A stretch of 64,000 nucleotides of DNA from Erysipelotrichaceae bacterium (GTDB lineage Bacteria > Bacillota_I > Bacilli_A > Erysipelotrichales > Erysipelotrichaceae): assembly GCA_022772735.1 (NCBI GenBank), contig JALEZD010000023.1, positions 123,791-187,790 on the forward strand. Reading direction: 5' to 3'. Each line of letters begins with the position of its first letter. Position 1 is the stretch's first letter. Made by a program: the position numbers and the translations under genes. Under the pieces are notes generated by a model. The model had not been told where the DNA came from, did no database searches, and saw only the letters and a program-made list of their open reading frames with translations. Positions 41,033 through 57,155 of this stretch are shown piece after piece.

Positions 41033-43429
41033 ATGGGATATAATCATTTAGAAATCGAAAAGAAATGGCAAAATTATTGGGAAAAAAATCAAACATTTAA
41101 GACTGATGTCTGGGATTTTTCAAAACCGAAGTATTATGCTTTAGATATGTTTCCATACCCAAGTGGTGTAGGTCTTCATGCAGGGCATCCAGAAGGGTAT
41201 ACAGCAACAGACATAATATGCAGAAAAAAGAGAATGGAAGGCTACAATGTTTTACATCCAATGGGATTTGATAGTTTTGGATTGCCAGCAGAACAGTATG
41301 CGATAAGTACTGGCAATCATCCTGAGGGATTTACTTTAAAAAACATTGAAACTTTTAGAAAACAATTAAAAATGCTTGGTTTTTCTTATGATTGGAGTAA
41401 GGAGGTTTCTACAAGTGATCCAAATTTTTATAAATGGACACAATGGATATTTAAACAATTATTTAATGATGGGTTGGCAAAATGTGTAGAAATGCCTGTA
41501 AACTGGTGTGAAGAGCTTGGGACAGTTTTGGCAAATGATGAAGTTATTGATGGTAGAAGTGAAAGAGGAAATTATCCTGTTGTTAAAAAAATGATGCGAC
41601 AATGGGTAATTGATATTGTTGAATATGCTGAAAAACTTTTACAAGGTTTAGATGAAATTGATTGGCCAGAGTCAACAAAAGAAATGCAAAGAAATTGGAT
41701 TGGTAAATCAATTGGTGCAGAAGTTATATTTAAAGTTTATAATTCAGATGAAAGTTTTAAAGTTTTTACAACTCGATGTGATACCTTGTTTGGTGCAACA
41801 TATTGTGTATTATCACCAGAACATGAATTAGTAAATAAAATTACTACTAGTGAATATAAAAATGAAGTTGATAAATATGTTAATGAAGCAAAAAACAAAT
41901 CTGAAATAGAAAGAAGTGACAATACAAAGGAAAAAACAGGTGTGTTTACAGGAGCATATGCAATTAATCCTGTAAATAATAAAAAAATACCAATATGGAT
42001 ATCTGATTATGTTTTAATGGGATATGGTACAGGCGCTATTATGGCTGTACCTGCACATGATGAAAGAGATTTTGATTTTGCTAAAAAATTCCAAATTGAA
42101 ATAATTGATGTTTTAGATGGTAGAAAAGATGATGATAAAGCATATACAGGTGATGGGCTACATATCAATTCTGAGTTTCTAAATGGTTTAAATAAAGAAG
42201 AGGCTATCTCTAAGATGATTGATTGGTTGAAATTAAATAATGTTGGAAAAGATAAAGTAAACTATAAAATTAGAGAGTGGATATTTGCCAGACAAAGATA
42301 TTGGGGGGAACCAATACCTGTTATATATATGAATGATGGTGATATTATTGCGGTTAGTGATGAAAATCTTCCTCTTATTTTACCTGATGTTAATGATTAT
42401 GTACCAAGAAACGGAAAATCACCACTAGAAAATGCTAAAGACTGGGTGAATGTAGAAGTTGATGGCAAGATAGGAAAAAGGGAAACAAGTACTATGCCAG
42501 GTTCTGCTGGTTCAAGTTGGTATTTTTTAAGATATATTGATCCAAAAAATGAAAATGAACTTTGTGATTATAAATTAATGAAGCATTGGTTACCGGTTGA
42601 TTTGTATATAGGTGGTCCAGAACATGCAGTAGGGCATCTACTTTATTCAAGAATGTGGAATAACTACTTGTATGATAAGGGAATAGTTCCAGTTAAAGAA
42701 CCATTTAAAAAGCTTGTGCATCAAGGTATGATATTAGGTGCTAATGGAATAAAAATGGGTAAGAGATTCCCAGAATTTGTGGTTGATCCTGAAGAAGTTG
42801 TTGAAAAATACGGTGCTGATACGCTTAGATTATATGAAATGTTTATGGGACCACTTGAAGCAAGTAAGCCTTGGTCTAATCAAGGAGTTGATGGAGCTAG
42901 AAAATGGTTAGATAGAGTTTACAGAATTTTTATTGAGATGGATAAATTAACGGATGTAAATACTCATGAACTTGACTATGTATATAATGAAACAGTTAAA
43001 AAGGTTACAGATGATATAGAAACACTTAATTTAAATACTGCAATTTCACAGATGATGATTTTTATTAACGAATGTTATAAACAGGAAAAAATTTATAAAG
43101 AATATGCAGTTAATTTTATAAAAATGTTATCTTGTTATGCACCACATATTTGTGAAGAAATGTATTCAATTATTACTGGCAAAACTGGAATTACTTATGA
43201 AACATGGCCAAACTATGATGAAAAAGCTTTAATAAAAGATGAAGTTGAAATTGTTGTACAAGTTAGTGGCAAAGTTAGAGGTAGGTTTACTATAAAAAAA
43301 GGAAGTAGTGAAGAAGAATTAATTAACAAGGCTATTAGCATTGAAAGTGTTAAACAACATCTCGATAATAAGACAATTTTAAAAACAATTGTAGTTGCAG
43401 ATAAAATTGTTAATATTGTTGCAAAATAA
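41033..43429 (+). CDS. leuS: Leucyl-tRNA synthetase
   Basis: A 798-residue class I synthetase charging tRNA-Leu. The HIGH motif reads HAGH (49-52, in [17 protein letters not shown]); the CP1 editing domain shows the conserved [12 protein letters not shown] and [17 protein letters not shown]. The KMSKS loop is atypical: KMGKR at 574-578, followed by [22 protein letters not shown]. The anticodon-binding and C-terminal domains follow. AAGGAGGG precedes ATG 41033. Regulation is by the T-box just upstream. Confidence 0.96.
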
Positions 43430-43438
43430 TAATGGTTA

Positions 43439-43500
43439 AAAAGTGTTCAGTATACTAGATACTAAAAGCTAAATAGTATTTAGAAGATGAACATTTTTTA
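43439..43500 (+). terminator. Long structured terminator after leuS
   Basis: Outer arms AAAAGTGTTC and GAACATTTTTT enclose an inner stem CTAGATACTA / TAGTATTTAG with G-U pairs, then a T-run. About 60 nt in all. Confidence 0.65.
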
Positions 43501-43518
43501 TTATGTTTTAATTTTAGG

Positions 43519-43547
43519 TTGACATTTACAATTTATTTTTATATCTT
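43519..43547 (+). promoter_or_regulatory. Promoter of the coiled-coil/GT-C gene pair
   Basis: TTGACA (43519-43524), 17-bp spacer, TATCTT (43542-43547), 35 bp before ATG 43582. Confidence 0.65.
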
Positions 43548-43581
43548 AAAGTTAATAGCGTACTATATACAGGAGAGATGT

Positions 43582-44292
43582 ATGAACATTAATTTAAAGA
43601 AAAAATTATATAATGACTTTTTTGGTGAAGAATTTAATGAAATTGATAACAATTTTTCTAATACTAAAATAAATGAAGCAGAAAAATTCGAAAAAAATCC
43701 AAAAGATTACTATGAAATGATAAATAGATTAAGAAAAGATATTTATGATGCAAATGTAGAAATTGAAAATTTAAAAATAGATTCAAATAAAGAATTTTTA
43801 AGTACAAAACCAAGAGAAGTTAATTATATACCCAAAAATGAAAACGCTTTATCAAGCGTTGAAACTATTGATGATATAAAAAAAATAGGAAATATTAATC
43901 TCATTGAAGAAAATAAAAGACTTTCTGATATCATTAATTCTTTAAGTGAAATGTTAAACTCAATGGTTTTAAAAGAAGAAAAATTAGTAAAGAAAATTAA
44001 TGAAATTGAAGATAATTATGAAAATAAAATTAATTTAAAATTTTCTGAGATGAACAATTATAAGCTTGAAATTGAAAAATACAAAAAGTTGCTTGTTGAA
44101 AAAATAGAGGATAATAAAAAACTTAAGACAAAAGTTATAGCATCAATTGATTATATTTGTGAGTTATCTGATAAGGTTGAATATTTAGAAGAAACTAATA
44201 AGCTTTTATTAAAACAGTTAGAAGAGCAAAGGCAAAAAAATAGAAAAATTGCCGATTTAGATATTTCTACATATTTTAACGAGAAAAATTAA
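43582..44292 (+). CDS. Coiled-coil protein at the 5' edge of the tad locus
   Basis: A 236-residue, highly charged protein with no signal or membrane segment. Residues about 45-65 and 110-225 have heptad-like Leu/Ile spacing. The C-terminal module (residues 188-229) matches residues 319-359 of the coiled-coil protein at the other end of the tad locus: 24 of 41 positions identical without gaps, including DKVxYL, KQLEEQR and KNR, then LDI. I do not recognise a named family. ATG 43582 has AGGAGAG before it; the frame opens earlier, at a TTG that is really the -35 box. It is 3 bp before the membrane protein gene. Confidence 0.8.
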   Translation: MNINLKKKLYNDFFGEEFNEIDNNFSNTKINEAEKFEKNPKDYYEMINRLRKDIYDANVEIENLKIDSNKEFLSTKPREVNYIPKNENALSSVETIDDIKKIGNINLIEENKRLSDIINSLSEMLNSMVLKEEKLVKKINEIEDNYENKINLKFSEMNNYKLEIEKYKKLLVEKIEDNKKLKTKVIASIDYICELSDKVEYLEETNKLLLKQLEEQRQKNRKIADLDISTYFNEKN

Positions 44293-44295
44293 TTT

Positions 44296-45765
44296 ATGAA
44301 AGTTAAATTTCAAAAAGAAAAAGTAGTATTTATAACTTTGGTATTTTCGTTAATTGTTTTGTATATGTCAATTTTTGTTTCATTATATAATCCCAATTCA
44401 GATGTTTGGTTTATGACTACTATTGGTAGATTTATATCTGAAAACGGTTACGTGCCAAAAATTAATTATTTTACAATACACAATGATTTTTCATTTATTG
44501 TTCAACAATGGATTCCGTCTTTGATTTTTTATCATTTATACAATAACTTTGGATTGTATTCGTTTTATGTTTATTCGTTTGTTATGGGATTTATTAGTTT
44601 GTTGATTTTCTATAAGTTTTCTGGTTATTTTACAAATAATAATAAAGTTAGAATTTTATTATTGGCTGTAATTTGTATGATAATTTCTCCGTTTTTAACT
44701 ACTAGACCTGTGCTTATTAGTTTATCTTTAATTACTTTATTTCTTTGTGTATTAGAAGAATACAAAAAAACAAAAAATTTTAAGGTTTTATTGTTTTTGC
44801 CAGTATTATCACTTATTGAAATAAATGTTCATGCATCATTTTGGCCGTTCTTATTTGTTGTTAGTTTACCTTATATTACACCAGCAATTCCTGATTTAAA
44901 AAAATTTAACTTTAAGCAGTTTCTACTTGAAAATAAATATATATTTTTTGCGCTGATAATTAGTTTTATGTTTGGTTTTTTTAATCCAAACGGAATAAAA
45001 GGAATGCTTTATTTGTTTTTAAGTTATTCTTCTGCAGTGAAAGGAATAGTTATATCAGAGTTAGAAAAACCAACTTTTGCAAGTTTGTTTGGTATAGAAA
45101 TTTTAGCATCGATAATTTTATTTGTAGTGTATATAATTAAGAATAAAAATGAGCTTGACTATAAAATTATATATATGTCATTAGGTTTGATAATTTTATC
45201 AACACTACATATAAGAAATTTAGTATTTCTTCCTTTATTTGTATGTCCATTATTTTGCATTGTTTTTAACAAGTTTATAAATGATGTTTATACTCCAATT
45301 ACTACAAGATATAAAATTTTAATATTAATTTATAGCTTTATATATTTATTGGGGGTTTTTAGAAACATAAACAACTTTAAATATGAATCTGAAATTAAAG
45401 ACATTTATTATACTCCTGTTTTAGCTGTTGATTATTTAAATAAATTAGACAAATCGAAGATAGTTTTATTTACAGAATTTAATAATGGAGCTTTTCTTCA
45501 ATGGAATGGATATAAAGTATATGTTGATGCAAGACCTGAATTATATGAAAAAAGGATAAATGGTAAAGAAAATATATTTACCGAATATTCTAATTTGTTT
45601 AATGGAATATATGATTCTAAAGAATTTTTAGAAAAATACAAATTTACCCATTTAGTTATTGAGGATATAAATCGTTTTGGTGATCAAGTTAAATATATGG
45701 ATGATTATTCATTAGTTTTAAAAGGTAATGGTTATAAGTTGTACGAGAGAAAAAATGAGAATTAA
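44296..45765 (+). CDS. Polytopic GT-C-like membrane protein
   Basis: A 489-residue protein with about ten membrane helices and a soluble C-terminal part (about 375-489). The first loop reads NSDVWFMTTIGRFISENG...PKINYFT...QQWIPSLIFYHLY, the pattern DxW...G..I...G.VP..d.fs...W.p.ll.y.ly that marks a group of GT-C-fold glycosyltransferase-like proteins. The C-terminal FTEFNNGAFLQW...VYVDARPELYE matches the same group (NxGGYLxW...FIDGRxDLY). Such enzymes use polyprenyl-linked sugars outside the membrane. The Asp in DVW could be catalytic. Position next to tad genes suggests pilin glycosylation, which is inference. Confidence 0.7.
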   Translation: MKVKFQKEKVVFITLVFSLIVLYMSIFVSLYNPNSDVWFMTTIGRFISENGYVPKINYFTIHNDFSFIVQQWIPSLIFYHLYNNFGLYSFYVYSFVMGFISLLIFYKFSGYFTNNNKVRILLLAVICMIISPFLTTRPVLISLSLITLFLCVLEEYKKTKNFKVLLFLPVLSLIEINVHASFWPFLFVVSLPYITPAIPDLKKFNFKQFLLENKYIFFALIISFMFGFFNPNGIKGMLYLFLSYSSAVKGIVISELEKPTFASLFGIEILASIILFVVYIIKNKNELDYKIIYMSLGLIILSTLHIRNLVFLPLFVCPLFCIVFNKFINDVYTPITTRYKILILIYSFIYLLGVFRNINNFKYESEIKDIYYTPVLAVDYLNKLDKSKIVLFTEFNNGAFLQWNGYKVYVDARPELYEKRINGKENIFTEYSNLFNGIYDSKEFLEKYKFTHLVIEDINRFGDQVKYMDDYSLVLKGNGYKLYERKNEN

Positions 45766-45853
45766 TTAACATGTACTATATATAGTGTTAATTTAATTTA
45801 ATGGTTTGATAGTAAAAATAATTCTTAAGAAATGTTTAGAATAAAAAAATGTG

Positions 45854-45882
45854 TTGAAATTTAAAAATATTGATGATAGCAT
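45854..45882 (+). promoter_or_regulatory. Candidate promoter of the tad operon
   Basis: TTGAAA (45854-45859), 17-bp spacer, TAGCAT (45877-45882). Its predicted start point lies after ATG 45870, which supports the GTG 45921 start for the peptidase. The 90 bp before it contain only an AT-rich palindrome (ACTATATATAGT at 45775-45786). Confidence 0.5.
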
Positions 45883-45920
45883 ACAGATGTATATATAGTA
45901 CGACTGGGAGCGATGATGTT

Positions 45921-46610
45921 GTGAATATTGATATTTTATTTTCAATTTGTTTTGGTTTTGTTTTTATGGTTCTCACGCCATATTTATCTGAAAAGATAAT
46001 TGAATATAAAAATAAATTAAGAAATAACGAAGATAAACTCGTAAGTAGAGCATATCCGAAGCTTTTATTTATGGCATATGCATTTTTCCTTACGTTTTTT
46101 GTTGTTTCTTTTTCTTTTTCAAATTATTATTGGTGGAAAATTATATTTATTACTGTTTTTTGCTTCATAACTTGTATTGGGACTTTAGTGGATATAAGGG
46201 TAAGAATAATTCCAAATGAAATGGTTCTAATGATAATCGTGCTAGGTATATTTTTGAGATTTATTGAATTTGGTTTTGCTGGTCTTTTAAATAGTTTTCT
46301 TACGGTTTTAGGGACAGTAGCATTTATGTTTTTAAGCTATTTTATCACAAAAGCATTTTATCAAAACTTAAATCCTTTTGGTGCAGGTGATATGAAGCTT
46401 ATCTTGGCAGTAGCATTTGTGATTGGGTATCCAGATGTTTTAGGTGCTTTTACAGTTTGTATAGGTACAATGCTAGCGTACATCTCTGTTGGGATGTTAT
46501 TTAAAAAACTGCATATGAGATCTTATATTCCAATGGCAGGTTTTATATTGATTGGATTGGTTTCAGGTTTGTTATATGGGAGGAGAATATTAGATGTTAT
46601 TGGTTTTTAA
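45921..46610 (+). CDS. Prepilin peptidase (A24 family, TadV/CpaA type)
   Basis: A 229-residue aspartic membrane protease that cleaves the leader of Flp-type prepilins. About seven helices. The catalytic pair is Asp91 (LVDIRVRIIPNE) and Asp157 (GAGDMKL). There is no N-terminal Cys-rich methylase domain, as in TadV/CpaA. GTG 45921 is chosen since GGGAG lies 10 bases before it and the likely promoter lies downstream of the ATG at 45870. It overlaps the first pilin gene by 17 bp. Confidence 0.88.
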   Translation: MNIDILFSICFGFVFMVLTPYLSEKIIEYKNKLRNNEDKLVSRAYPKLLFMAYAFFLTFFVVSFSFSNYYWWKIIFITVFCFITCIGTLVDIRVRIIPNEMVLMIIVLGIFLRFIEFGFAGLLNSFLTVLGTVAFMFLSYFITKAFYQNLNPFGAGDMKLILAVAFVIGYPDVLGAFTVCIGTMLAYISVGMLFKKLHMRSYIPMAGFILIGLVSGLLYGRRILDVIGF

Positions 46611-46785
46611 TTCCGTAGTATCTTTTTTAAAAGATGAAAGCGGACAGTCAATGGTGGAATATGGTTTATTGATTTCACTTTTAGTAGTTGGTGCAATAGC
46701 TGCGTTAGAACTTTTTGGGAAAAATTTATCAGATATGTTTGATAATAGAATTTCTCCAAAAGTAAATAAAGCTATTAATCCATAG
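46594..46785 (+). CDS. Flp pilin 1
   Basis: A 63-residue Flp/Fap prepilin. The leader ends in DESG, with cleavage expected before Gln in GQSMVEYG, and Glu at +5 of the mature form followed by Tyr, the Flp signature. One hydrophobic helix (LLISLLVVGAIAAL) follows and the tail is charged. It differs from pilins 2-5 (S for G after the cleavage Gln, another helix sequence), so it is the most divergent copy. GGGAGGAG precedes the start. Confidence 0.93.
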   Translation: MLLVFNSVVSFLKDESGQSMVEYGLLISLLVVGAIAALELFGKNLSDMFDNRISPKVNKAINP

Positions 46786-46830
46786 ATTTAAGTAATAAAA
46801 GTATTTGTCTAAATTGAAAGGAGGATTTTT

Positions 46831-47025
46831 ATGGTAGATATTAAAAGATTTCTGCTTGATGAAAGCGGACAAGGAATGGTTGAATATGGTTTAATCATCG
46901 CCTTAGTATCAGTTGTTGCGATTGCTGCACTAACAAATATTGGTAAAAATTTAAATACAATGTTTGGAAAAGTTAACAATGCACTTCCATCTGCTGCTCC
47001 AGGTCCAAGATTACCAAAGTTTTAA
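46831..47025 (+). CDS. Flp pilin 2
   Basis: A 64-residue Flp prepilin with leader ending DESG and mature start QGMVEYGLII (Glu at +5). The helix reads ALVSVVAIAALTNIGKNL, and the tail ends in PGPRLPKF, shared with pilin 3. AAAGGAGG precedes the start. It is the first of four close copies. Confidence 0.94.
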   Translation: MVDIKRFLLDESGQGMVEYGLIIALVSVVAIAALTNIGKNLNTMFGKVNNALPSAAPGPRLPKF

Positions 47026-47051
47026 TTGAAAATTATTAAAGGAGGAAATAC

Positions 47052-47234
47052 ATGAAAAATTGGTTACTAGATGAAAGCGGTCAAGGAATGGTTGAATATG
47101 GTTTAATCATTGCCTTGGTATCAGTTGTTGCTATTCTTGCATTAACAAACATTGGTAAAAATTTAAATACAATGTTTGAAAAAGTTAATAATGCGCTTCC
47201 AAAAGCTTCAGGTCCAAGATTACCAAAGTTTTAA
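47052..47234 (+). CDS. Flp pilin 3
   Basis: A 60-residue prepilin almost identical to pilin 2 through the helix; it starts MKNWLLDESG and has QGMVEYG after the cleavage site. The tail KASGPRLPKF is a close copy of the pilin 2 end. AGGAGG precedes the start. Confidence 0.94.
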   Translation: MKNWLLDESGQGMVEYGLIIALVSVVAILALTNIGKNLNTMFEKVNNALPKASGPRLPKF

Positions 47235-47255
47235 TTGAATTTAGAGGAGAAAAAT

Positions 47256-47408
47256 ATGAAAAATTGGTTATTAGATGAAAGCGGACAAGGAATGGTTGAA
47301 TATGGTTTAATTATCGCCTTGGTATCAGTTGTTGCTATTGGCGTATTAACAACAATTGGTAAAAATTTAAATACAATGTTCAACAATGTTGCAAACAATA
47401 TTAAGTAA
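47256..47408 (+). CDS. Flp pilin 4 (50 aa)
   Basis: A 50-residue prepilin: MKNWLLDESG leader, QGMVEYG, helix with SVVAIGVLTTIGKNL, tail NNVANNIK. It lacks the PRLPKF tail of pilins 2 and 3. GAGGAG lies just upstream. Too short for usual ORF cut-offs, but the repeat structure and signature leave no doubt. Confidence 0.92.
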   Translation: MKNWLLDESGQGMVEYGLIIALVSVVAIGVLTTIGKNLNTMFNNVANNIK

Positions 47409-47422
47409 AAGAGGAGAAAAGT

Positions 47423-47575
47423 ATGAAAAATTGGTTATTAGATGAAAGCGGACAAGGAATGGTTGAATATGGTTTAATCATTGCCTTAGTATCAGTTGTA
47501 GCTATTGGTGTATTAGGAACAATTGGTAATAATTTGAAAAATATGTTTAATACTGTTGCTGGTAATATTAAATAA
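47423..47575 (+). CDS. Flp pilin 5 (50 aa)
   Basis: A 50-residue prepilin, the last of the array: same MKNWLLDESG leader and QGMVEYG start, helix with SVVAIGVLGTIGNNL, tail NTVAGNIK. GAGGAG precedes the start. A strong hairpin follows the gene, separating the pilins from the pseudopilin genes. Confidence 0.92.
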   Translation: MKNWLLDESGQGMVEYGLIIALVSVVAIGVLGTIGNNLKNMFNTVAGNIK

Positions 47576-47586
47576 TATTATCAAAA

Positions 47587-47634
47587 TAACATATTACTTA
47601 CAAACGGCATCATTTTGCCGTTTGTAAGTGTTAT
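47587..47634 (+). terminator. Strong hairpin after the pilin array (partial terminator or mRNA stabiliser)
   Basis: Perfect 14-bp stem ACTTACAAACGGCA (47596-47609) / TGCCGTTTGTAAGT (47616-47629), 6-nt loop, extendable by AATAAC/GTTATT around a bulge. No real T-run follows, so read-through into the tadE genes is likely. Confidence 0.75.
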
Positions 47635-47657
47635 TAATAATAAAACACGGAGGTTTT

Positions 47658-48167
47658 ATGTCATTAAAAGTGATAACAAAATTAATTAAAAAGAATAAAA
47701 TAGAATCTGGACAAAGTTTGGTACAGTTTGTTTTAGTGTTACCAGTTTTAATGATAATGTTTGGAATAATTGTTGATACGGGTAGAGTTATTAACGCAAA
47801 AATTATTTTAGGTAACGCTACTGCAGAATGTATTAGATATATCGTTGAAAAACGAACAACACCAATAAGTGACTCTAATTTGAAGGCTTTGACAGATGAG
47901 GCTCTTAACAATGGTAGATTTTATGATTTTTTTGATAAAAGAAAACTTAATATAGATATTACAGTAAGTAATAATAGTCCCCAAGAATATTATTATCACA
48001 AAAGTAATAGGGATTATTATGGAACAAGAGGGTATGTTTATACAAAAGATGTTAAAATAGAACTTTCGTATGAGTTAGATTTGATTATGCCTCTTGCAAG
48101 AGTAGCATTTAAAGGCAATAAAATTGTTTTAAAAAACAGTTTATTGACAAGGGTTGGTTATAAATGA
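47658..48167 (+). CDS. TadE-like pseudopilin
   Basis: A 169-residue pseudopilin with basic N-terminus, then ESGQSLVQFVLVLPVLMIMFGIIVD (written here in two halves in meaning: cleavage site and helix), matching TadE where VEFALVLP is usual. Position +5 is Gln instead of Glu. A soluble domain of about 130 residues follows. ATG 47658 has GGAGG six bases upstream; the open frame before it is non-coding. It overlaps the next gene by 4 bp. Confidence 0.85.
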   Translation: MSLKVITKLIKKNKIESGQSLVQFVLVLPVLMIMFGIIVDTGRVINAKIILGNATAECIRYIVEKRTTPISDSNLKALTDEALNNGRFYDFFDKRKLNIDITVSNNSPQEYYYHKSNRDYYGTRGYVYTKDVKIELSYELDLIMPLARVAFKGNKIVLKNSLLTRVGYK

Positions 48168-48673
48168 TTATAGAAAAATTTAGAAAAATAAAATCAGAAT
48201 CTGGTCAAGCAATGCTTGAATATGCTTTGACGATATTAATGTTTTTATCTGTTGTTTTTGCAATTATGGATATTGCTTGGTATTCTTATCAAAATATTGT
48301 GTTTAATTATAGTTATCAATTAGCATCTTGGCAATTATCGGTGAATGATCCAGATATTGATTCTAACTACTATTATGATGGAAGTTATACAGGTGAATTA
48401 ATATACAATGAAATAACAAAAAATGCTATAGGTATTAATAAATCAAAATTATCTGTATACAATCCAAGAATTGATTTATACACTGAATATTTTAAATATA
48501 GAAACCCGGGTGATCGATCAGATAGAACAGAAAAAAGAAGATATATGCAAATAACTGCAAGAATTGAGTATGAATTTTATCCATTTACATTTATGGGAAG
48601 GATGTTTTTTGGAAGAAGAATTTTATTAGTCAAAAACTTAAGCAGATTAAGATTGTTGCAGGCAAAGAGGTGA
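48164..48673 (+). CDS. TadE/TadF-like pseudopilin
   Basis: A 169-residue pseudopilin with ESGQAMLEYALTILMFLSVVFAI: cleavage after Gly and Glu at +5, as in Flp-type proteins. The remainder is soluble and Tyr-rich (NYYYDGSYTG). ATG overlaps the previous stop (ATGA), so the two minor pilins are translationally coupled, in keeping with a TadE-TadF pair that primes the pilus. Confidence 0.85.
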   Translation: MIIEKFRKIKSESGQAMLEYALTILMFLSVVFAIMDIAWYSYQNIVFNYSYQLASWQLSVNDPDIDSNYYYDGSYTGELIYNEITKNAIGINKSKLSVYNPRIDLYTEYFKYRNPGDRSDRTEKRRYMQITARIEYEFYPFTFMGRMFFGRRILLVKNLSRLRLLQAKR

Positions 48674-48677
48674 TTTT

Positions 48678-49196
48678 ATGATGATAAAAAAGATATTAAA
48701 GGACGAAAAAGGAGATATTCTTATATTATCAACTGCAGTATTTATTGTTTTATTAGGATTTATTTCTTTGTCAATAGATATAGGGTTGGCATATATGTAT
48801 AGAAATAAAATTTTAGAAATTGCAAATGTAATGAGAGATACACGTTTTACTAAGGACGCAAATCAAACGGAAGTGTTATCTAATAATATGAATCCAGGCG
48901 ATTATATGGCTGACTTAATGGCAGAGTATGCTAGAAAAAATAACTTTAAAGGAAAAGTCACCATAAATTTTCATGAACATACAACACATTCTACTGAAAG
49001 AAGATATGATGTAACAATAACAATGGAGTCCGTTTACAAAACAACTACATTAAATGTTTTTAATATAAAAGAGTTACCGATTAAGGTTGTAGTTAAAGGG
49101 TATGGATATAAAAATGGTTCTGATTTATGGAATCCATCTTCAAACAATCCGTATTATACTTCTTGGAATAAAGTTGAAAAGACATATATATATTAA
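48678..49196 (+). CDS. TadG-like pilus assembly protein
   Basis: A 172-residue protein with N-terminal DEKGDILILSTAVFIVLLGF, the TadG-like helix (DEkGaxAv...llG...l.iDvG), then SIDIGLAYMYRNKI and a soluble domain. It is much shorter than full TadG, lacking the vWA-like C-terminal part. Two adjacent ATGs (48678, 48681) follow GAGGTG. It ends 18 bp before cpaB. Confidence 0.8.
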   Translation: MMIKKILKDEKGDILILSTAVFIVLLGFISLSIDIGLAYMYRNKILEIANVMRDTRFTKDANQTEVLSNNMNPGDYMADLMAEYARKNNFKGKVTINFHEHTTHSTERRYDVTITMESVYKTTTLNVFNIKELPIKVVVKGYGYKNGSDLWNPSSNNPYYTSWNKVEKTYIY

Positions 49197-49214
49197 TTTA
49201 ATAAAGGAGAGACT

Positions 49215-50003
49215 ATGAGAAAAATAAGAATTATCGCTTTGATTGCATCAATTATTGTTGCATCAATATTGTTTATATATGTTTCAAAGTTTGAAAATAA
49301 AATAAGTGAAGCAGATATAAAATATAAAGATGTTGTTGTTGCGGTTAATGATATTCCAGCAAACACATACATAAAACCAGAAATGCTTGCGGTTATATCA
49401 GTTCCTGAAAAATCAGTTCATGCTGATTCAGTTTTAGATTATAGTGAAGCTGAAGGAAAATTGTCTAATTCAAAAATATATGCTAATGAAGTTATTTTGA
49501 AATCTAGACTAATTTCAAAAGGTGAAAATAGTGCTTCATATGGACTTGCTTATGTGATTTCTGAAAATTCAAGAGGAGTAAGTGTTGCACTTGAAGCACC
49601 AAGAAGTGTATCTTCTCAACTAAAAATTGGAAATTATGTTGATATTATTTTTAATGGTACTGTTGAAATAAAAGTTAATGACAAATCAAAAACAGAGGAA
49701 ATTTCAATAAATAAAGAATTTACAAAGATGTTACTTCAAAATGTAAAAATTATTGGTTTAGATAAAGTAATTACAGGGGGAAGTGATGATACAAGCAGTC
49801 CACAAGAATATACAAATATCACTTTTGAATTATCACCTGAAGATACTTTAAAATTAGTATACGCAGTAAGAAATGGTGATGTTTGGTTAACACTTAGACC
49901 TCAAGGTGATAACGGGTATATAGAGGATAAAGAAATAATACTAGATGATATTGTAAATAAAGCTAGATTGATTGAATCAGCTGTTGAACAAGTGAAACAA
50001 TAA
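49215..50003 (+). CDS. cpaB: Flp pilus assembly protein CpaB/RcpC (SAF domain)
   Basis: A 262-residue protein with one N-terminal membrane helix (residues 4-22) and a SAF domain (VVVAVNDIPANTYIKPEML), then a C-terminal RcpC region (SRGVSVALEAPRSVSSQLKIGNYVDII). In diderms CpaB works with the secretin; here no secretin gene is present, so it presumably acts in the cell wall. AAGGAG precedes ATG 49215. Confidence 0.92.
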   Translation: MRKIRIIALIASIIVASILFIYVSKFENKISEADIKYKDVVVAVNDIPANTYIKPEMLAVISVPEKSVHADSVLDYSEAEGKLSNSKIYANEVILKSRLISKGENSASYGLAYVISENSRGVSVALEAPRSVSSQLKIGNYVDIIFNGTVEIKVNDKSKTEEISINKEFTKMLLQNVKIIGLDKVITGGSDDTSSPQEYTNITFELSPEDTLKLVYAVRNGDVWLTLRPQGDNGYIEDKEIILDDIVNKARLIESAVEQVKQ

Positions 50004-50013
50004 GGAGGGATAT

Positions 50014-51201
50014 ATGTCTATAAGAACCATTATTTTTGGAGAAAATCCACGAGAAATTGAAAATATTTGTAACAAAATAAATGATAAAGACATTCATATA
50101 CTTAATAAATCAATTAATTTATCTAACGCTTCAGATGAAGTTTCAAAATTAAGACCTAATTTAGTATTAATAACTTGCTCAGATTCAAACTGGGCATTTA
50201 GAGCTTGTCAACAAATAACTTTGTTACAGCCAAATATTGCGACAATTTTAATTTCAACATCTTCAGACTATGAAAACGTAAAAAAAGCAATTGATTCTGG
50301 GGCTACAGGATTTGTAACATTAGATGAACAAGTTAATGAAGAAATAAAGAAAATATATTTTAATCACCAATCAAAATTATCAATGTTACTTGAAAATTCT
50401 GGTATTCAAAGAAAAGCACAAGTTATTTCTGTTTTTGGTACAAAAGGTGGAATAGGAAAAACGACTCTTGCAGTAAACCTGGCTGTTGCTTTATCTAGGA
50501 AAAAGGCAAAAGTTGCTATATTAGATTTGGATTTGCATTTTGGTGATGCACATATGTTTTTAGGTTTAGATGTAAAAGAAACAATAACAGAATTGTTACA
50601 AGAACAAAAAGTTCCAACTATTGATAGTATTAGAAATTATTTTGTTCATCATTCTTCAGGTGTTCAAGTGTTATGTTCACCAATAAGTCCAGAATATGCT
50701 GATGGAATAACTGCATCACAAGTAGAACCGATAATAAATATTTTAAGAACTTATTATGATTATATTATTATTGATACTTCAGCAGATTTTTCAGAATTAA
50801 ATTTATTAATGCTTGAAGAATCTAGCACAATTTTATATGTGACTGGTTTAGATATTTCCTTGTTGAATAACTCAAAAAAAGGATTACTTTTACTTGATTC
50901 ATTAAATCAAAAAGGAAAAGTTAAAGTTGTATTGAGTAGAGATTTTAAAACAGATATAAGTGTATATGATGTTGAAAAAATTATGGATTTAAAGGTTGTT
51001 TCAAGAATACCAAATGACTATAGTGAAGCAGTTAGAGCATTAAATCAGGGTGTTCCAATTGTGTCAAGTTCAGGTAAAAGTATGATTGCTAAAGAAATAA
51101 ACAAGCTTGCTAATTCATTTATACCAAACGCTGTTGAAGAAGGTAGTAAAGCTGTGAAATCTAAGTTTAAATTACCTTTTATTAAAGGGGTGGTTAAATG
51201 A
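50014..51201 (+). CDS. cpaE: Flp pilus assembly ATPase CpaE/TadZ
   Basis: A 395-residue protein with an atypical receiver-like domain (about 1-115) and a ParA/MinD-type ATPase domain: deviant Walker A FGTKGGIGKTT (from about residue 141), LDLDLHFGDAHMFLG, and IIIDTSADFSE. TadZ localises the pilus machine at the membrane or cell pole. AAGGAGGG precedes the start. It overlaps cpaF by 4 bp. Confidence 0.93.
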   Translation: MSIRTIIFGENPREIENICNKINDKDIHILNKSINLSNASDEVSKLRPNLVLITCSDSNWAFRACQQITLLQPNIATILISTSSDYENVKKAIDSGATGFVTLDEQVNEEIKKIYFNHQSKLSMLLENSGIQRKAQVISVFGTKGGIGKTTLAVNLAVALSRKKAKVAILDLDLHFGDAHMFLGLDVKETITELLQEQKVPTIDSIRNYFVHHSSGVQVLCSPISPEYADGITASQVEPIINILRTYYDYIIIDTSADFSELNLLMLEESSTILYVTGLDISLLNNSKKGLLLLDSLNQKGKVKVVLSRDFKTDISVYDVEKIMDLKVVSRIPNDYSEAVRALNQGVPIVSSSGKSMIAKEINKLANSFIPNAVEEGSKAVKSKFKLPFIKGVVK

Positions 51202-52550
51202 GCACTTTACAAGAGAGATTAGAACAAGCACGTTCGATAAAAGTTAATGTAAATGCTCCAAATAGAAGATCCCACGAGATAAGTCAAAATACTTATTTTG
51301 ATGAATATGCAACTTTTAAAAGTAAAGTTCATCAGGAATTATTAAATCAAATGAACTTTGGTAAAGAATTAGAAGCTGGTGATAAAGAAGCAATTTTACA
51401 ATTAATAAAAACAATTGTTGATAATTTAGGAACAGATATTGCAAGACCAGTAAAAAATAGATTAGTTAATGAGATTTATGATGAAACTATTGGATTTGGT
51501 CCTTTGGAAACGCTACTTAAAGATAATGATGTTTCTGAAATCATGGTTAATGGTCCATCACTTGTCTACGTTGAAAGAAGAGGAAGAATTGAATTATCAT
51601 CAATTCAATTCAGAGACAATGAACAAGTATTAAATGTTATAGATAGAATTATTTCACCATTAGGTAGAAGATGTGATGAAAGTAATCCAATGGTTGATGC
51701 TCGTTTGCCTGATGGTTCTCGTGTAAATGCAATCATACCTCCTGTAGCACTTACAGGACCTACAATAACTATAAGAAAATTCTCTAAAACTCCATTAGTC
51801 ATCTCTGATTTAATTAAATATAACTCTCTTTCTTTTGCTATGTCTGCCTTTTTGGATGCGTGTGTAAAGGGAAAAGCAAATATGATTATTTTTGGAGGGA
51901 CTGGTAGTGGAAAAACAACGCTTTTAAACACTTTATCGGGTTTTATTCCTGACAATGAGCGTATTGTAACAATAGAAGATGCTGCAGAATTACAGTTAAA
52001 GCAACCTCACATAGTAACTCTGGAAAGTAGACCAGCAAATGTTGAAGGAAAAGGTGAAATAACAATAAGAGATTTAGTTAGAAACTCTTTACGTATGCGT
52101 CCTGATAGAATTGTTGTTGGAGAAGTTAGATCTGGGGAAGCCCTTGACATGTTACAAGCTATGAATACAGGACATGATGGTTCTTTGACTACTGCCCATG
52201 CTAATACTACAAGAGATTTATTATCAAGACTTGAAACTATGGTTTTAATGGCTGGTATGGGACTTCCTTCACATGCTATAAGAGAACAAATTGCTTCAGC
52301 ATTCAATATAATCGTTCATCAATCAAGATTGCGTGATGGTAGTAGAAAGATTGTAAGTATTTCTGAAGTTTTAGGTATGGAAGGAGATACTATAGTTTTA
52401 CAAGAAATATTTTATTTTAAACAAGAGGGATTTGATGGCTCTGGTAATATAAGAGGAAAATTTTTAGCGACAGGAATTAGACCAAAAGTATTAGAAAGAA
52501 TTACTGCTGAAGGTATTGCAGTAAATGATAGTTGGTTTAATGCTTCTTAA
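51198..52550 (+). CDS. cpaF: Flp pilus assembly ATPase CpaF/TadA
   Basis: The 450-residue secretion ATPase that powers pilus assembly. Typical strings: IGFGPLETLLKDNDVSEIMVNG, Walker A FGGTGSGKTT (Lys239), the Asp box IEDAAEL, Walker B-like RIVVGEVRSGEALDMLQAMNTGHDG, and the His box TTAHANT. It ends with a short CpaF-type tail. Overlaps cpaE by 4 bp; tadB follows 12 bp later. Confidence 0.96.
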   Translation: MSTLQERLEQARSIKVNVNAPNRRSHEISQNTYFDEYATFKSKVHQELLNQMNFGKELEAGDKEAILQLIKTIVDNLGTDIARPVKNRLVNEIYDETIGFGPLETLLKDNDVSEIMVNGPSLVYVERRGRIELSSIQFRDNEQVLNVIDRIISPLGRRCDESNPMVDARLPDGSRVNAIIPPVALTGPTITIRKFSKTPLVISDLIKYNSLSFAMSAFLDACVKGKANMIIFGGTGSGKTTLLNTLSGFIPDNERIVTIEDAAELQLKQPHIVTLESRPANVEGKGEITIRDLVRNSLRMRPDRIVVGEVRSGEALDMLQAMNTGHDGSLTTAHANTTRDLLSRLETMVLMAGMGLPSHAIREQIASAFNIIVHQSRLRDGSRKIVSISEVLGMEGDTIVLQEIFYFKQEGFDGSGNIRGKFLATGIRPKVLERITAEGIAVNDSWFNAS

Positions 52551-52562
52551 AAGGAGGGAAAT

Positions 52563-53507
52563 ATGCATTTAAAAATTATTGTAATAATTATTTCCGTTTT
52601 GATGTATTTAGTTATTTATAATCTTTTAGATTTTCAAAACTTGTTTTTAATAAAAACAAAAAGTAGAATCAATAAATTGATTAGAATGACAGATATTGCT
52701 GATTTTAACCAAGCTACTGCAAGTGCTGGCGTTAAAGATTACAATTATTTTTCATTTATAAAAGTTTCGGACTCTTTAAAAAGAAATTTAATGTCGTCAG
52801 GGTTAAAATTAAAAGCTGAAGAATTTGTTGCGATGTGGTTTGCGATAACTGTTATTCCAACAATTTTATATACTATTTTTAAAGGGTTTGGAGCAATGAC
52901 ACTTTTGGTTATGTTGCTAGGATTTATTTCACCTTTATTAATATTAAATATTAGTAAAAGAAGAAGAATTGCTAAGTTTTCTGTTCAATTAAATGATGCA
53001 TTAATAATTATTGGAAACTCTTTAAGAACTGGATTTACATTTAGACATGCTTTAGCTAGAGTATCTGAAGATTTACCTGATCCAATTTCTGAAGAATTAA
53101 GAAGAGTAATAAGAGAAGTGAATTATGGTGCAAAATTAGAAGATTCATTAGGAGCACTAGCAAATAGAATGAATAGTAAAGAATTGAATATGATAAACTC
53201 TGCGGTTATTATCCAACAAAGAACAGGTGGTAATCTAGCTGAAATAATAGATAAAGTAAGTTTGACTATATCAGATAGAATAAAAATGAAAAATCAAATT
53301 AAAACATTAACTGCCCAAGGTAAAACATCAGGTATTATTATGGCATTAATACCTGTTGCAATACTTTTATCTTTATTTTTTATGAGCCCAGACTATATTA
53401 TGGTATTTTTTACAACTCAAATTGGAATAAGTATATTTGCTTTTTCAATATTTTGGGAATTTATAGGATTTATGTTCATCAAAAAGTTAGTGGATATTAA
53501 ATTTTGA
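52563..53507 (+). CDS. tadB: Flp pilus inner-membrane platform protein TadB
   Basis: A 314-residue protein of the GspF/TadB type with N-terminal helix, a pair of helices near residues 95-135, the cytoplasmic T2SSF domain (LNDALIIIGNSLRTGFTFRHALARV; NSKELNMINSAVIIQQRTGGNL), and two C-terminal helices. AAGGAGG precedes ATG 52563. tadC follows 8 bp downstream. Confidence 0.93.
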   Translation: MHLKIIVIIISVLMYLVIYNLLDFQNLFLIKTKSRINKLIRMTDIADFNQATASAGVKDYNYFSFIKVSDSLKRNLMSSGLKLKAEEFVAMWFAITVIPTILYTIFKGFGAMTLLVMLLGFISPLLILNISKRRRIAKFSVQLNDALIIIGNSLRTGFTFRHALARVSEDLPDPISEELRRVIREVNYGAKLEDSLGALANRMNSKELNMINSAVIIQQRTGGNLAEIIDKVSLTISDRIKMKNQIKTLTAQGKTSGIIMALIPVAILLSLFFMSPDYIMVFFTTQIGISIFAFSIFWEFIGFMFIKKLVDIKF

Positions 53508-53515
53508 GGTGAAAC

Positions 53516-54439
53516 ATGGGAATAATATTTATATTTTTTGCATCAATATTAACATATTGTATATTAATTATTGTTTTTGGTAAAAGGGCAATGATTAATG
53601 AAGAAATAAAAGCTAGACTTGAAAAAACAAAAGTTCAAGCTAATAACAACAATGTTCCATATGAAAATGTTCCATTTATTGAGCGTATAATAAAACCATC
53701 AATTGATAGCTTTATTAGTTTCTTTTCTAGAATTTTACCTGTCAGTGAAAAAGAACAAGCTGAATTATCAAAACAACTTTTGCGTGCAGGAATGAAAATA
53801 AAACCAAATGACTATATTGTAATGAAGCTACTTGTAGTATTTCTTTTTGGTTTAGCGTTTGCTACATACCAATTGACATTTAAAATTAACAGAAGTTTAC
53901 AGCCAGTTTTACTTAATTCTGCGTATGGAATGATTGTTGGATATGGGTTAATGCAATATATGTTAAAAAGAAGAATTAGGATTAGAAAAGAAAAAATGCA
54001 AATGCAGCTCCCTGGTTTTTTAGATCTATTATCAGTTTGTGTTGAAGCTGGTTTAGGTTTTGATCAGGCAGTTTTATATGTTACTGGTGAGTATCCATGT
54101 GAGCTATCTAATGAATTTAAAATAGTAGTGAGAGATACTTCACTTGGTAGTACTCGAAAAGAGGCATTAACTAATCTTCAAGATAGATGTGATATTGATC
54201 AATTGAAAACATTTACTGCTGCAGTTATTCAAGCAGACGAAATGGGTATAACATTAAAAAATATTTTAACAGCACAGGCTTCAAATGTAAGACTTGCACA
54301 TAAACAAAAAGTTGAAGAACAAAGTCAAAAATTACCAGTTAAAATATTAATACCAATGTTAATCTTTATTTTTCCAGTAATCTTTATTATTTTAATTGTT
54401 CCAGCAGCACTGAGAGCTATGTCTGCAATTGGAGGGTAA
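53516..54439 (+). CDS. tadC: Flp pilus inner-membrane platform protein TadC
   Basis: A 307-residue second GspF-like platform protein, paralogous to TadB: LPGFLDLLSVCVEAGLGFDQAVLYV and QLKTFTAAVIQADEMGITLKNIL are the T2SSF core, followed by KLPVKILIPMLIFIFPVIFIIL as the last helix. GAGGTG precedes the start. TadB and TadC together form the membrane platform driven by CpaF. Confidence 0.93.
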   Translation: MGIIFIFFASILTYCILIIVFGKRAMINEEIKARLEKTKVQANNNNVPYENVPFIERIIKPSIDSFISFFSRILPVSEKEQAELSKQLLRAGMKIKPNDYIVMKLLVVFLFGLAFATYQLTFKINRSLQPVLLNSAYGMIVGYGLMQYMLKRRIRIRKEKMQMQLPGFLDLLSVCVEAGLGFDQAVLYVTGEYPCELSNEFKIVVRDTSLGSTRKEALTNLQDRCDIDQLKTFTAAVIQADEMGITLKNILTAQASNVRLAHKQKVEEQSQKLPVKILIPMLIFIFPVIFIILIVPAALRAMSAIGG

Positions 54440-54441
54440 TT

Positions 54442-54786
54442 TTGAAAAAAATAGATATATGTATAGATGACAATAAAATTTTTGATGGACCTATTTATAT
54501 TGCAGAATGTTTTTTAGATAGATTGATGGGGTTAATGTTTAAAAAGAGTATTGGTGTAGAAGAAGGTATATTTTTTACAAATACTAATAGGGTACATACA
54601 TCTTTTATGAAATTTCCTATTGATGTTGTATATCTTAATAAAAATTATGAAGTAATATATAAAGAAACATTAAACCCATGGGTTATTGGTTCAAATGTTA
54701 AAGGAGCAAAGCATTTGATAGAATTAAATAAAGATGTATCAGAAAAATTAAAGATTAATGATAAAATAAAATTAATTAGATATTGA
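54442..54786 (+). CDS. DUF192 family protein
   Basis: A 114-residue DUF192 (UPF0127) protein: RLMGLMFKKS, then NTNRVHTSFMKFPIDVVYLN, the family's HTxFMxFPIDV core. There is no signal peptide. The start is TTG 54442 with GGAGGG at 54431-54436. DUF192 genes are frequent in tad loci of Bacillota and actinobacteria; their function there is unknown. It lies 2 bp after tadC. Confidence 0.88.
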   Translation: MKKIDICIDDNKIFDGPIYIAECFLDRLMGLMFKKSIGVEEGIFFTNTNRVHTSFMKFPIDVVYLNKNYEVIYKETLNPWVIGSNVKGAKHLIELNKDVSEKLKINDKIKLIRY

Positions 54787-54793
54787 GGTGAAT

Positions 54794-55972
54794 ATGATTT
54801 TGGAAGAAAATATTAATAAAGATAATCAAGCATTGAATGAAATTAGAAATAGAAGTATAGAGGAATACCTTGATTCAAAGCTTGAAAATGCATGGATGAC
54901 AAAGGGATATTCAAAAAGTAGTGTTAAAGAATATGTGAATCATCTTTTAAAAGAAATCGATTATCAAAAAGATAGTTTTAAAGTACAAATTAAAGAAATT
55001 CTTGATGAAAAAGAAAGATTAATTAATGAAAAAAATTTAGTTTCTAAACAGTTAGAAGATTCTGTACAATCTTTGAAAGAATTAGAAAATGAAAATTCTA
55101 AGATTGAAGGTTTATATGCCACAATTAATAATCTTAATAGTGAATTAGATAGTTTAAGAAATATTGATAACTCTGTTGAAATTGAAGAATTAAATAATCA
55201 ATTAAATGAATATAGAGAATATATTGATAAACTGGAAAAAAATAACTCTGAATCGGCTGTTAATGATGAGGTGTATAATGAACTATTAGATAAAATAGAA
55301 GTGTTAAATAATGAAAATTTGAGATTGAATTCTGAACTGGAAAGACTTTCTAATGTTGAGATTAAAACATCTGATGTTTTTGTTGATAATAACGATGAAA
55401 ATTTCATTAAAGAATATGAATCACTAAAATCTCAAATTGCAGAATATGAGCGTTTTAAAATTGATAATCAAATGCTTTCTGCAGAAATTTTAGCATTAAG
55501 TAGATTGATTAAAGATTTTACTCAACGAGATAAGGATAATAATAATAAAATAGTTCAATTAAATAAAGATATTGATGATTTAAAAGAAGAACATAAACTT
55601 GATATTCAATCTGTAAGTGCAAATTTTGAAAAAAGAATTGAAGATTTGAATGGTGAAATACAAAAAGTTAATAACGAATTAAATGATGAAAAAAATCAAA
55701 GAACAGTTTTATTAAATGAAAGAGCGGAACTTCAACTTAGACTTTCATCATGTTTGGAATACTTAAATGAACTTTATGATAAAGTTGATTATTTACAATC
55801 TTCAAATAAAATTTTGTCAAAACAACTAGAAGAACAACGTTCAAAAAATAGATTATTGTCGGGATTAGATATACCTCCAATATCACTTGATGCAATTGAA
55901 AATATAAAAAATATGGAAATTGATGAAGATAAGCTAGATTTCTTCAAAGTGGACAGTAATTCAAATTATTAA
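54794..55972 (+). CDS. Long coiled-coil protein at the 3' edge of the tad locus
   Basis: A 392-residue protein that is almost all coiled coil (residues about 50-180 and 205-355), with no membrane segment. The N-terminal GYSKSSVKEYVNHLLKEID weakly recalls the DivIVA pattern (GYxxxxVxxFL). The C-terminal module (319-359, DKVDYL, KQLEEQRSKNR, GLDI) is shared with the protein at 43582-44292. GAGG precedes ATG 54794 with spacing 5; the GTG at 54788 is part of the ribosome site. It is the last gene before a terminator, in the tad operon by spacing. I infer a polar or cytoskeletal scaffold for the pilus machine. Confidence 0.8.
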   Translation: MILEENINKDNQALNEIRNRSIEEYLDSKLENAWMTKGYSKSSVKEYVNHLLKEIDYQKDSFKVQIKEILDEKERLINEKNLVSKQLEDSVQSLKELENENSKIEGLYATINNLNSELDSLRNIDNSVEIEELNNQLNEYREYIDKLEKNNSESAVNDEVYNELLDKIEVLNNENLRLNSELERLSNVEIKTSDVFVDNNDENFIKEYESLKSQIAEYERFKIDNQMLSAEILALSRLIKDFTQRDKDNNNKIVQLNKDIDDLKEEHKLDIQSVSANFEKRIEDLNGEIQKVNNELNDEKNQRTVLLNERAELQLRLSSCLEYLNELYDKVDYLQSSNKILSKQLEEQRSKNRLLSGLDIPPISLDAIENIKNMEIDEDKLDFFKVDSNSNY

Positions 55973-55974
55973 TC

Positions 55975-55996
55975 AAGGACTATACGTCCTTTTTTA
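55975..55996 (+). terminator. Intrinsic terminator of the tad operon
   Basis: AAGGAC (55975-55980) / GTCCTT (55986-55991), 5-nt loop, T-run to 55995. Confidence 0.85.
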
Positions 55997-56033
55997 GTTT
56001 ACTTATAATATTAACTATATCGTAGGAGGAAAA

Positions 56034-56366
56034 ATGCTAAACAAAATTGTAAAAGTAGTTGTTGATAGACCGATAGGAAGTATACATCCAAACTATAAAG
56101 AAACATATTATTCAATAAACTATGGTTATATTGAAGGGACTCTTGCTTTAGATGGTGAAGAAGTTGATGCGTATATATTAGGTGTAGATATTCCAATAAA
56201 ATATTTCACGGGAAAAGTAATTGCTATAATACATAGAGAAGATGATGTGGAAATAAAATGTGTTGTTGCCCCAATAAATATGGAATTTACTTTAAAAGAG
56301 ATAGAAGATAAAGTTCATTTTATTGAAAAGTATTTTAAATCTACTATTATTATGGGTGAAAAGTAA
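56034..56366 (+). CDS. Short inorganic pyrophosphatase-like protein
   Basis: A 110-residue protein resembling the core of family I inorganic pyrophosphatase: VDRPIGSIHPNY (11-21), YYSINYGYIEGTLALDGEEVDAY (25-47 in two motifs). The metal site DxDPxD reads DGEEVD (40-45), with Glu replacing the middle Asp and Pro. Standard enzymes have 165-220 residues, so this lacks a third or more. Short forms occur in Bacillota but their activity is unknown to me. GGAGG precedes the start; a TATAAT lies at 56004-56009. Confidence 0.7.
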   Translation: MLNKIVKVVVDRPIGSIHPNYKETYYSINYGYIEGTLALDGEEVDAYILGVDIPIKYFTGKVIAIIHREDDVEIKCVVAPINMEFTLKEIEDKVHFIEKYFKSTIIMGEK

Positions 56367-56390
56367 ATTTAAATTTATACTTTAGTGCAG

Positions 56391-56416
56391 ATGATTATAT
56401 ATTTTGATATAATCAT
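56391..56416 (+). promoter_or_regulatory. scpA promoter within a palindrome
   Basis: Extended -10 TGATATAAT (56405-56413) lies in a perfect 10-bp inverted repeat ATGATTATAT (56391-56400) / ATATAATCAT (56407-56416). Could be an operator or an AT-rich coincidence. Confidence 0.5.
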
Positions 56417-56432
56417 ATAGCGAGGTGTTTAG

Positions 56433-57155
56433 ATGAACTTTAAGGTTACAATCGATGAATTTGATGGACCATTAGATTTAATGTTACATCTAATTAAAGA
56501 GAATAAACTAGACTTATTTAATTTAGATATAAGTGTTTTAAGCGAACAATATTTGTTATATATTAATCATTTTGAAAAAATACATTTAGAAATTGCAAGT
56601 GAATATTTAGTTGAACTTGCAACACTTATTGAGTTTAAAAGTAAGAAACTTTTACCAAAACAAGATGAAGTTATTGAAGATGAATATCAAGAAGATCCAA
56701 AAGATAGACTAATTAGACGTTTATTAGAGTATCAACAATTTAAAGAAGTAACTAATAGCTTAGATGAATTATATAAAACAAGACTTTTACAATTTTCTAA
56801 ACCTATTACAATTGATGATGATTGGGTTAAACAGGATGATAATATTTCAATTGACGGTAATCCATATGATTTAGTTAAGGCTATGGCAAAATGTTTGAAA
56901 AGACTTCATCTTACCAAACCTATTGAGAAAAAAATTGCTCAAAAAGAAATTTCAATGGAAGAAAGAAGACTTTATATAGTTTCCAAATTGGATAGATTAC
57001 CTAAAACATTTAATTTTGAAAAATTGCTTGAAGATGTTAAAGAGGTAGGAGTATTTATTGTTACCTTTCTTGCAGTTTTGGATTTGGTTAGATTACATAC
57101 TTTATATTTTGATATTGATGAAAATGAAACGATTTGGTTAACAAGAGGTAAGTAG
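56433..57155 (+). CDS. scpA: Segregation and condensation protein ScpA
   Basis: ScpA is the kleisin of the SMC condensin complex. The 240-residue protein starts with FDGPLDLMLHLIKENKLDLFNLDI, then LVELATLIEFKSKKLLP, and a C-terminal winged-helix region (VGVFIVTFLAVLDLVRL). It lies 2 bp before scpB, its regular partner. The SMC subunit is not in the window. Confidence 0.95.
   Translation: MNFKVTIDEFDGPLDLMLHLIKENKLDLFNLDISVLSEQYLLYINHFEKIHLEIASEYLVELATLIEFKSKKLLPKQDEVIEDEYQEDPKDRLIRRLLEYQQFKEVTNSLDELYKTRLLQFSKPITIDDDWVKQDDNISIDGNPYDLVKAMAKCLKRLHLTKPIEKKIAQKEISMEERRLYIVSKLDRLPKTFNFEKLLEDVKEVGVFIVTFLAVLDLVRLHTLYFDIDENETIWLTRGK

Follow-up and report, generated by a model that had tools for sequence, protein, structure and literature searches.

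Pilin genes within a Tad operon

The window, by which we mean the whole analysed stretch of 64,000 nucleotides from the contig JALEZD010000023.1 of an Erysipelotrichaceae bacterium (positions 123,791 to 187,790), contains a single Tad (type IVc) pilus operon reaching from a TadV-type peptidase gene (45870-46610) to tadC (53516-54439), in which five Flp pilin genes and a hairpin are placed between the peptidase and the TadE-like genes:

45870-46610, plus strand: TadV-type prepilin peptidase (Pfam Peptidase_A24 PF01478, E 5.2e-9)
46594-46785, plus strand: Flp pilin copy 1, 63 aa, divergent (PF04964, E 3.2e-8)
46831-47025, plus strand: Flp pilin copy 2, 64 aa, main type with its own leader and PRLPKF tail (PF04964, E 2.6e-15)
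47052-47234, plus strand: Flp pilin copy 3, 60 aa, main type, PRLPKF tail (PF04964, E 4.1e-15)
47256-47408, plus strand: Flp pilin copy 4, 50 aa, main type, NIK tail (PF04964, E 3.7e-15)
47423-47575, plus strand: Flp pilin copy 5, 50 aa, main type, NIK tail (PF04964, E 9.9e-14)
47585-47635, plus strand: 20-pair hairpin, -24.2 kcal/mol, beginning nine bases after copy 5, with a poor U tract
47658-48167, plus strand: TadE-like pseudopilin (PF07811, E 5.1e-11)
48164-48673, plus strand: second TadE-like protein (PF07811, E 5.3e-5)
48678-49196, plus strand: possible TadG-like protein, without Pfam match and suggested by its N-terminus and position only
49215-50003, plus strand: RcpC/CpaB (PF16976, E 1e-16)
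50014-51201, plus strand: TadZ/CpaE-type ATPase (AAA_31, E 1.7e-14; ParA/MipZ matches and a weak receiver match)
51198-52550, plus strand: TadA/CpaF ATPase (T2SSE, E 8.6e-67)
52563-53507, plus strand: TadB platform protein (T2SSF, E 1.2e-16)
53516-54439, plus strand: TadC platform protein (T2SSF, E 2.1e-17)

With TadA, TadB/TadC, TadV, TadZ, RcpC and TadE all adjoining flp, the locus has the gene content of a Tad pilus operon; a secretin gene was not found among the operon-region genes searched. Low G+C and the TadA relatives, which reach at most 65% identity in a scan of named genomes, point to a Clostridia-type Bacillota. Upstream, the flanking genes at 43579-44292 and 44296-45765 are without Pfam match, and downstream the gene at 54788-55972 shows weak coiled-coil-type matches only.

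The five tandem pilin genes at 46594-47575 reported by the first-pass annotation are intact open reading frames, each preceded, as had also been stated, by its own ribosome site of the GGAG/GGAGG type. A chance match is excluded as all five pass the curated cut-off of the Flp_Fap profile PF04964 (33.7-56.4 bits against 32.2; E 3.2e-8 to 2.6e-15), and no other Flp match exists in the draft genome of 1.79 Mb. For copy 4 the ATG at 47256 is the most likely start; in the mechanical list of open reading frames it starts with an upstream TTG at 47235. The features described for Flp pilins, namely a glycine before the cleavage site, Glu at +5, Tyr at +6, a hydrophobic helix and a length of about 60 aa (passages of PMC3244431), are matched by the motif SGQ(G/S)MVEY in all five copies and their lengths of 50-64 aa, and the structure model of copy 2 predicts a single helix at residues 2-51 and a tail of low confidence (mean pLDDT 82, pTM 0.44). 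The earlier statement that the leader is conserved needs a correction for copy 2, which begins with MVDIKRF as against MKNW.

Copy 1, the first 17 bases of which lie within the end of tadV, is indeed divergent, with 63-67% DNA identity to the other copies. Among copies 2-5 the DNA identity is 73-87% (33-53 matching aligned residues per pair), for which the earlier description 'near-identical' is too strong, and they carry the two tail types that had been noted, PRLPKF in copies 2-3 and NIK in copies 4-5. The spacers between pilin copies measure 14-45 bases, and the array contains 166-base repeats at a spacing of 167-212 bases. A false expansion by assembly artefact is unlikely, as the window copies differ by at least 13% in DNA.

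The differences among copies 2-5 are unevenly distributed. If counting begins two residues ahead of DESGQ, core positions 1-20 are amino-acid identical in the four copies, whereas 7 of the next 17 are variable (Fisher p 0.0019, with the cut at 20 being our own choice), so that changes lie mainly in the outer half and the tail. As dS in the first core part is 0.27-0.65, a rough value as all dN/dS estimates from such small genes with few silent sites, the identity reflects constraint and not youth. In Caulobacter Tad pilins the N-terminus sits centrally and the C-terminus points outward (passages of PMC11067988); by analogy, the variable part of copies 2-5 would be the outward end of the subunit and the fixed part the inner one. 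With the inner 20 residues identical despite many silent changes, all four main copies appear to be functional and compatible in packing.

Relatives and history of the array

According to the first-pass annotation, its reading would be refuted if related genomes showed the same five copies unchanged with only one of them expressed; the first half of this is contradicted by the sister species G002, where, on the same plan, a divergent pilin at the tadV end is followed by one main pilin and the total is two. The Tad locus is patchy in the window's family, as only 10 among 272 genomes show any Flp match. Two pilins each are found in the four g60 genomes with matches and in G274, where one alone matches the Pfam model, and G586 has one pilin; the third genome of the window's own genus (80% complete) is without Flp match, and its TadA match reaches only 26%. 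The related genus g51 has a divergent first pilin followed by its own array of main pilins, with five Flp matches in G201 and four in G117, counts that are lower bounds because the array of G201 contains a 100-N gap and that of G117 is divided between two contig ends. In G117 a frameshifted copy (L135:393-521, minus strand) lies beside intact ones, a sign of birth and death of copies in the array. In G201 (L134:4131-5119) two main pilins are the same protein despite silent differences (dS 0.61, dN 0; few sites), and another pair differs in protein with silent sites nearly identical (dN 0.10, dS 0.03; few sites).

Among 80 named tad loci, the largest pilin cluster per locus comprised no pilin in 35 loci, one in 29, two in 12, three in two, and five and seven in one locus each, where a zero may also stem from contig truncation, from a pilin located beyond the flank or from one whose divergence hides it from the profile. 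This census fits the earlier statement that Flp loci usually have one or two pilins. Two Omnitrophota loci of the census carry seven (L112:14044-16164) and five (L132:12088-13608) Flp-type pilins in a row, arrays larger than that of the window, composed of divergent pilins with long variable tails and without a pilin-end hairpin.

The pilin tree is short and poorly resolved, 18 of its 30 inner branches being open. It places copies 2-5 in one group (88/95), separate from copy 1 and the main pilin of G002; a tree joining this main pilin with copies 2-5 is not rejected (p 0.27), and a single clade of the first pilins of relatives is neither shown nor rejected (AU p 0.23). Silent divergence among copies 2-5 amounts to 0.25-0.47 per site, compared with at least 1.1 between the copies and the main pilin of G002 (copy 3 not computable) and 1.21 between the TadA genes of the two species. 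Copies 2-5 are therefore most likely a lineage-specific expansion of a single main pilin that took place after the split from G002, with the caveat that conversion can also keep copies alike. Fresh slippage or duplication is ruled out by the same dS of 0.25-0.47. Fourteen of the 16 sites that divide the copies two against two support the grouping (2,3)(4,5), and the two exceptions lie 6 bases apart, a pattern that suggests stepwise duplication without visible shuffling.

A hairpin at the end of the pilin genes

The spacer between copy 5 and the TadE-like gene folds much better than its shuffled versions (z -8.0), which excludes chance folding, and a terminator scan finds the same hairpin as 47595-47630. 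A known RNA family at the hairpin is rejected, there being no Rfam match in 43000-56500, and no comparable hairpin was found between the window's pilins. The stem ends just 22 bases before the TadE start, which makes it unlikely that a separate promoter lies in between.

A hairpin lies between the last pilin and TadE in all ten loci of the family (-14.7 to -24.2 kcal/mol, weakest in G586), with its position kept and its sequence differing between genera. G201, G117 and G586 were missed in the first hairpin test; the hairpin of G201 begins more than 120 bases past the stop codon and the last pilin of G117 is on another contig, and the misses were recovered by a scan of the whole spacer that was decided on once the first result was known. 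In 23 Tad loci, six of the window's family and 17 of Bacillota, a hairpin of at least -14 kcal/mol in strength follows the pilins in 23 of 23 cases, compared with 40 of 213 other gene ends, taken as the ends of mechanically found open reading frames of the same operons (Mann-Whitney p 1e-12). In this comparison up to 300 bases were given to pilin ends at long gaps and 120 to other ends, which gives the pilin ends an advantage where gaps are long (as in L134 and L057, among others), and as the loci share ancestry the 23 hairpins are not 23 independent events. The tails after the stems are mostly U-poor. In the Bacillota Tad loci checked, too, it is the hairpin's position after the last Flp gene that is conserved, and not its sequence.

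When all phyla are taken together, 33 of 59 pilin clusters pass z < -2.5, whereas upstream stretches do so in 7 of 59 cases and stretches at +400 in 3 of 58; with only 33 clusters passing, the hairpin is not a general Tad feature. Leaving smaller groups aside, this threshold is passed by 16/17 clusters in Bacillota, 7/10 in the window's family, 4/5 in Planctomycetota, 2/4 in Chloroflexota and 2/7 in Pseudomonadota, and by none in Omnitrophota (0/4), Myxococcota (0/3) and Bdellovibrionota (0/2).

The arrangement, a stable stem between the gene for an abundant subunit and downstream genes of the same operon, matches that of an internal terminator setting a subunit ratio, and we propose that the hairpin is a partial terminator or an mRNA-protecting stem. 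In clostridia, internal terminators that have a long stem but few U set the subunit ratios of ABC importers (passages of PMC9045158), and a terminator after pilA has been reported to set the pilA-tfpY ratio (passages of PMC11841053). Selective RNA processing and stabilisation is another clostridial route to a subunit ratio (PMC4423207), and pilins go unmentioned in the passages of the literature searched on this subject. For Tad operons, no description of a pilin-end stem-loop or terminator was recognised among the papers listed on the subject by one open-access library, which does not prove its absence.

A mixed fibre, its alternatives and known systems

From the genes, their order, the constraint pattern and the hairpin we infer co-expression and co-assembly of the main pilins, a role of its own for copy 1 and an action of the hairpin on dose. 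That copies 2-5 are co-expressed major subunits of a mixed fibre, with their dose raised by the hairpin and copy 1 distinct, is the best explanation of the locus and one we hold to be somewhat more probable than not. Copy 1 would be made at a low level with the peptidase from their shared mRNA, as a distinct subunit that possibly acts as an adapter between filament and tip, as KilK and KilO do; adapter-type minor Flp proteins are separate from the major pilin, weakly expressed and required for attaching the tip, and of copy 1 it is seen that it is divergent and overlaps tadV. Copies 2-5 would be four working main subunits on the same mRNA, each translated from its own ribosome site, with the invariant inner helix allowing co-assembly in the same fibre and the differing outer ends and tails creating a mixed fibre surface. 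The hairpin would end or protect the pilin mRNA, with a minority of transcripts reading on into TadE and the machine genes, such that four genes and a hairpin together may provide many subunits per machine.

Both mixed fibres and dosage, which had been suggested at first sight of the array, fit the data: copies 2-5 are constrained in their amino acids, follow one another in a single gene string with no hairpin inside it and differ mostly in the outer half. Dosage alone, with copies 2-5 interchangeable, selection keeping the output high and the tail differences drifting on a tolerant surface, is the less likely of the two but has to be taken seriously: the hairpin also points to subunit excess and the G201 pair of identical main pilins (dS 0.61, dN 0) speaks for it, but the tails are kept as two types, each twice, 7 of 17 outer-half positions are variable and the second G201 pair differs in protein at dN 0.10 and dS 0.03 (few sites). 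The copies could instead be switched separately in time to supply variants for different conditions, for which 'Ca. Liberibacter asiaticus', where the transcription of six flp genes differs between two hosts (passages of PMC8312247), and the differently regulated flp genes of Bdellovibrio (passages of PMC5430801) are precedents; spacers of 14-45 bases without a terminator-like hairpin between copies, and promoter-like matches not in excess of shuffles (88 versus 95), make such a division of labour improbable here.

The third suggestion of the first-pass annotation, surface variation by recombination, is not supported in the window. For antigenic or receptor variation through recombination among copies speak the 166-base repeats, the array length varying between genera and the broken copy of G117, but a single history accounts for 14 of 16 informative sites, with the other two close neighbours, the copies are not visibly converted at a silent divergence of 0.25-0.47 per site, and the genome holds no further donor copies, so that we regard this reading as very improbable.

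If, as the mixed-fibre explanation has it, the main copies co-assemble, the locus would encode a natural mixed Tad fibre, with its inner packing face fixed and its outer face diversifying. The hairpin at 23 of 23 checked loci suggests that Bacillota Tad operons share a way to keep pilin in excess. As a tentative and rather doubtful generalisation, some Clostridia-like Tad pili may be mixed polymers of several major-pilin variants, alike in the invariant inner helix, unlike at the outer ends and made from one mRNA, with the position-conserved hairpin between the last pilin and TadE setting the ratio of subunit to machine across Bacillota.

Precedents have been published for large Flp arrays as well as for terminators at pilin ends. 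The operon shares with Gram-positive Tad/Flp operons the pilins with Glu +5 and Tyr +6, TadV, TadA, TadB/C, TadZ, RcpC and TadE-like proteins, and differs by its row of five pilins, such arrays being unmentioned in the passages concerned (PMC3244431). 'Ca. Liberibacter asiaticus' (flp1-flp7) likewise has several Flp genes, six of which are mapped with consecutive locus tags and transcribed, but is an Alphaproteobacterium for which differential expression is reported, a likeness by description only (passages of PMC8312247); the four flp genes of Bdellovibrio were in 2017 called the largest complement known (passages of PMC5430801). Since these sets and those of Omnitrophota exist, the array is an addition to known large Flp sets. 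Caulobacter PilA (PDB 8u1k) matches copy 2 in sequence (E 1.8e-7, residues 16-56), but its filament was solved as a single-pilin polymer (passages of PMC11067988) and the aligned part is without the PRLPKF tail. In the Kil pilus, KilK and KilO are low-level Flp adapters, small Flp proteins that accompany a distinct major pilin, and of these copy 1 is a proposed analogue (passages of PMC12075869).

The published passages on internal terminators do not mention Tad operons, and the role of the hairpin here is a predicted one. The window's hairpin is like the clostridial internal terminators in its long stem, its low U content and its place after the gene for an abundant subunit and before a machine or accessory gene, and, conserved in position, it is the most useful new point of the locus and the part most worth following.
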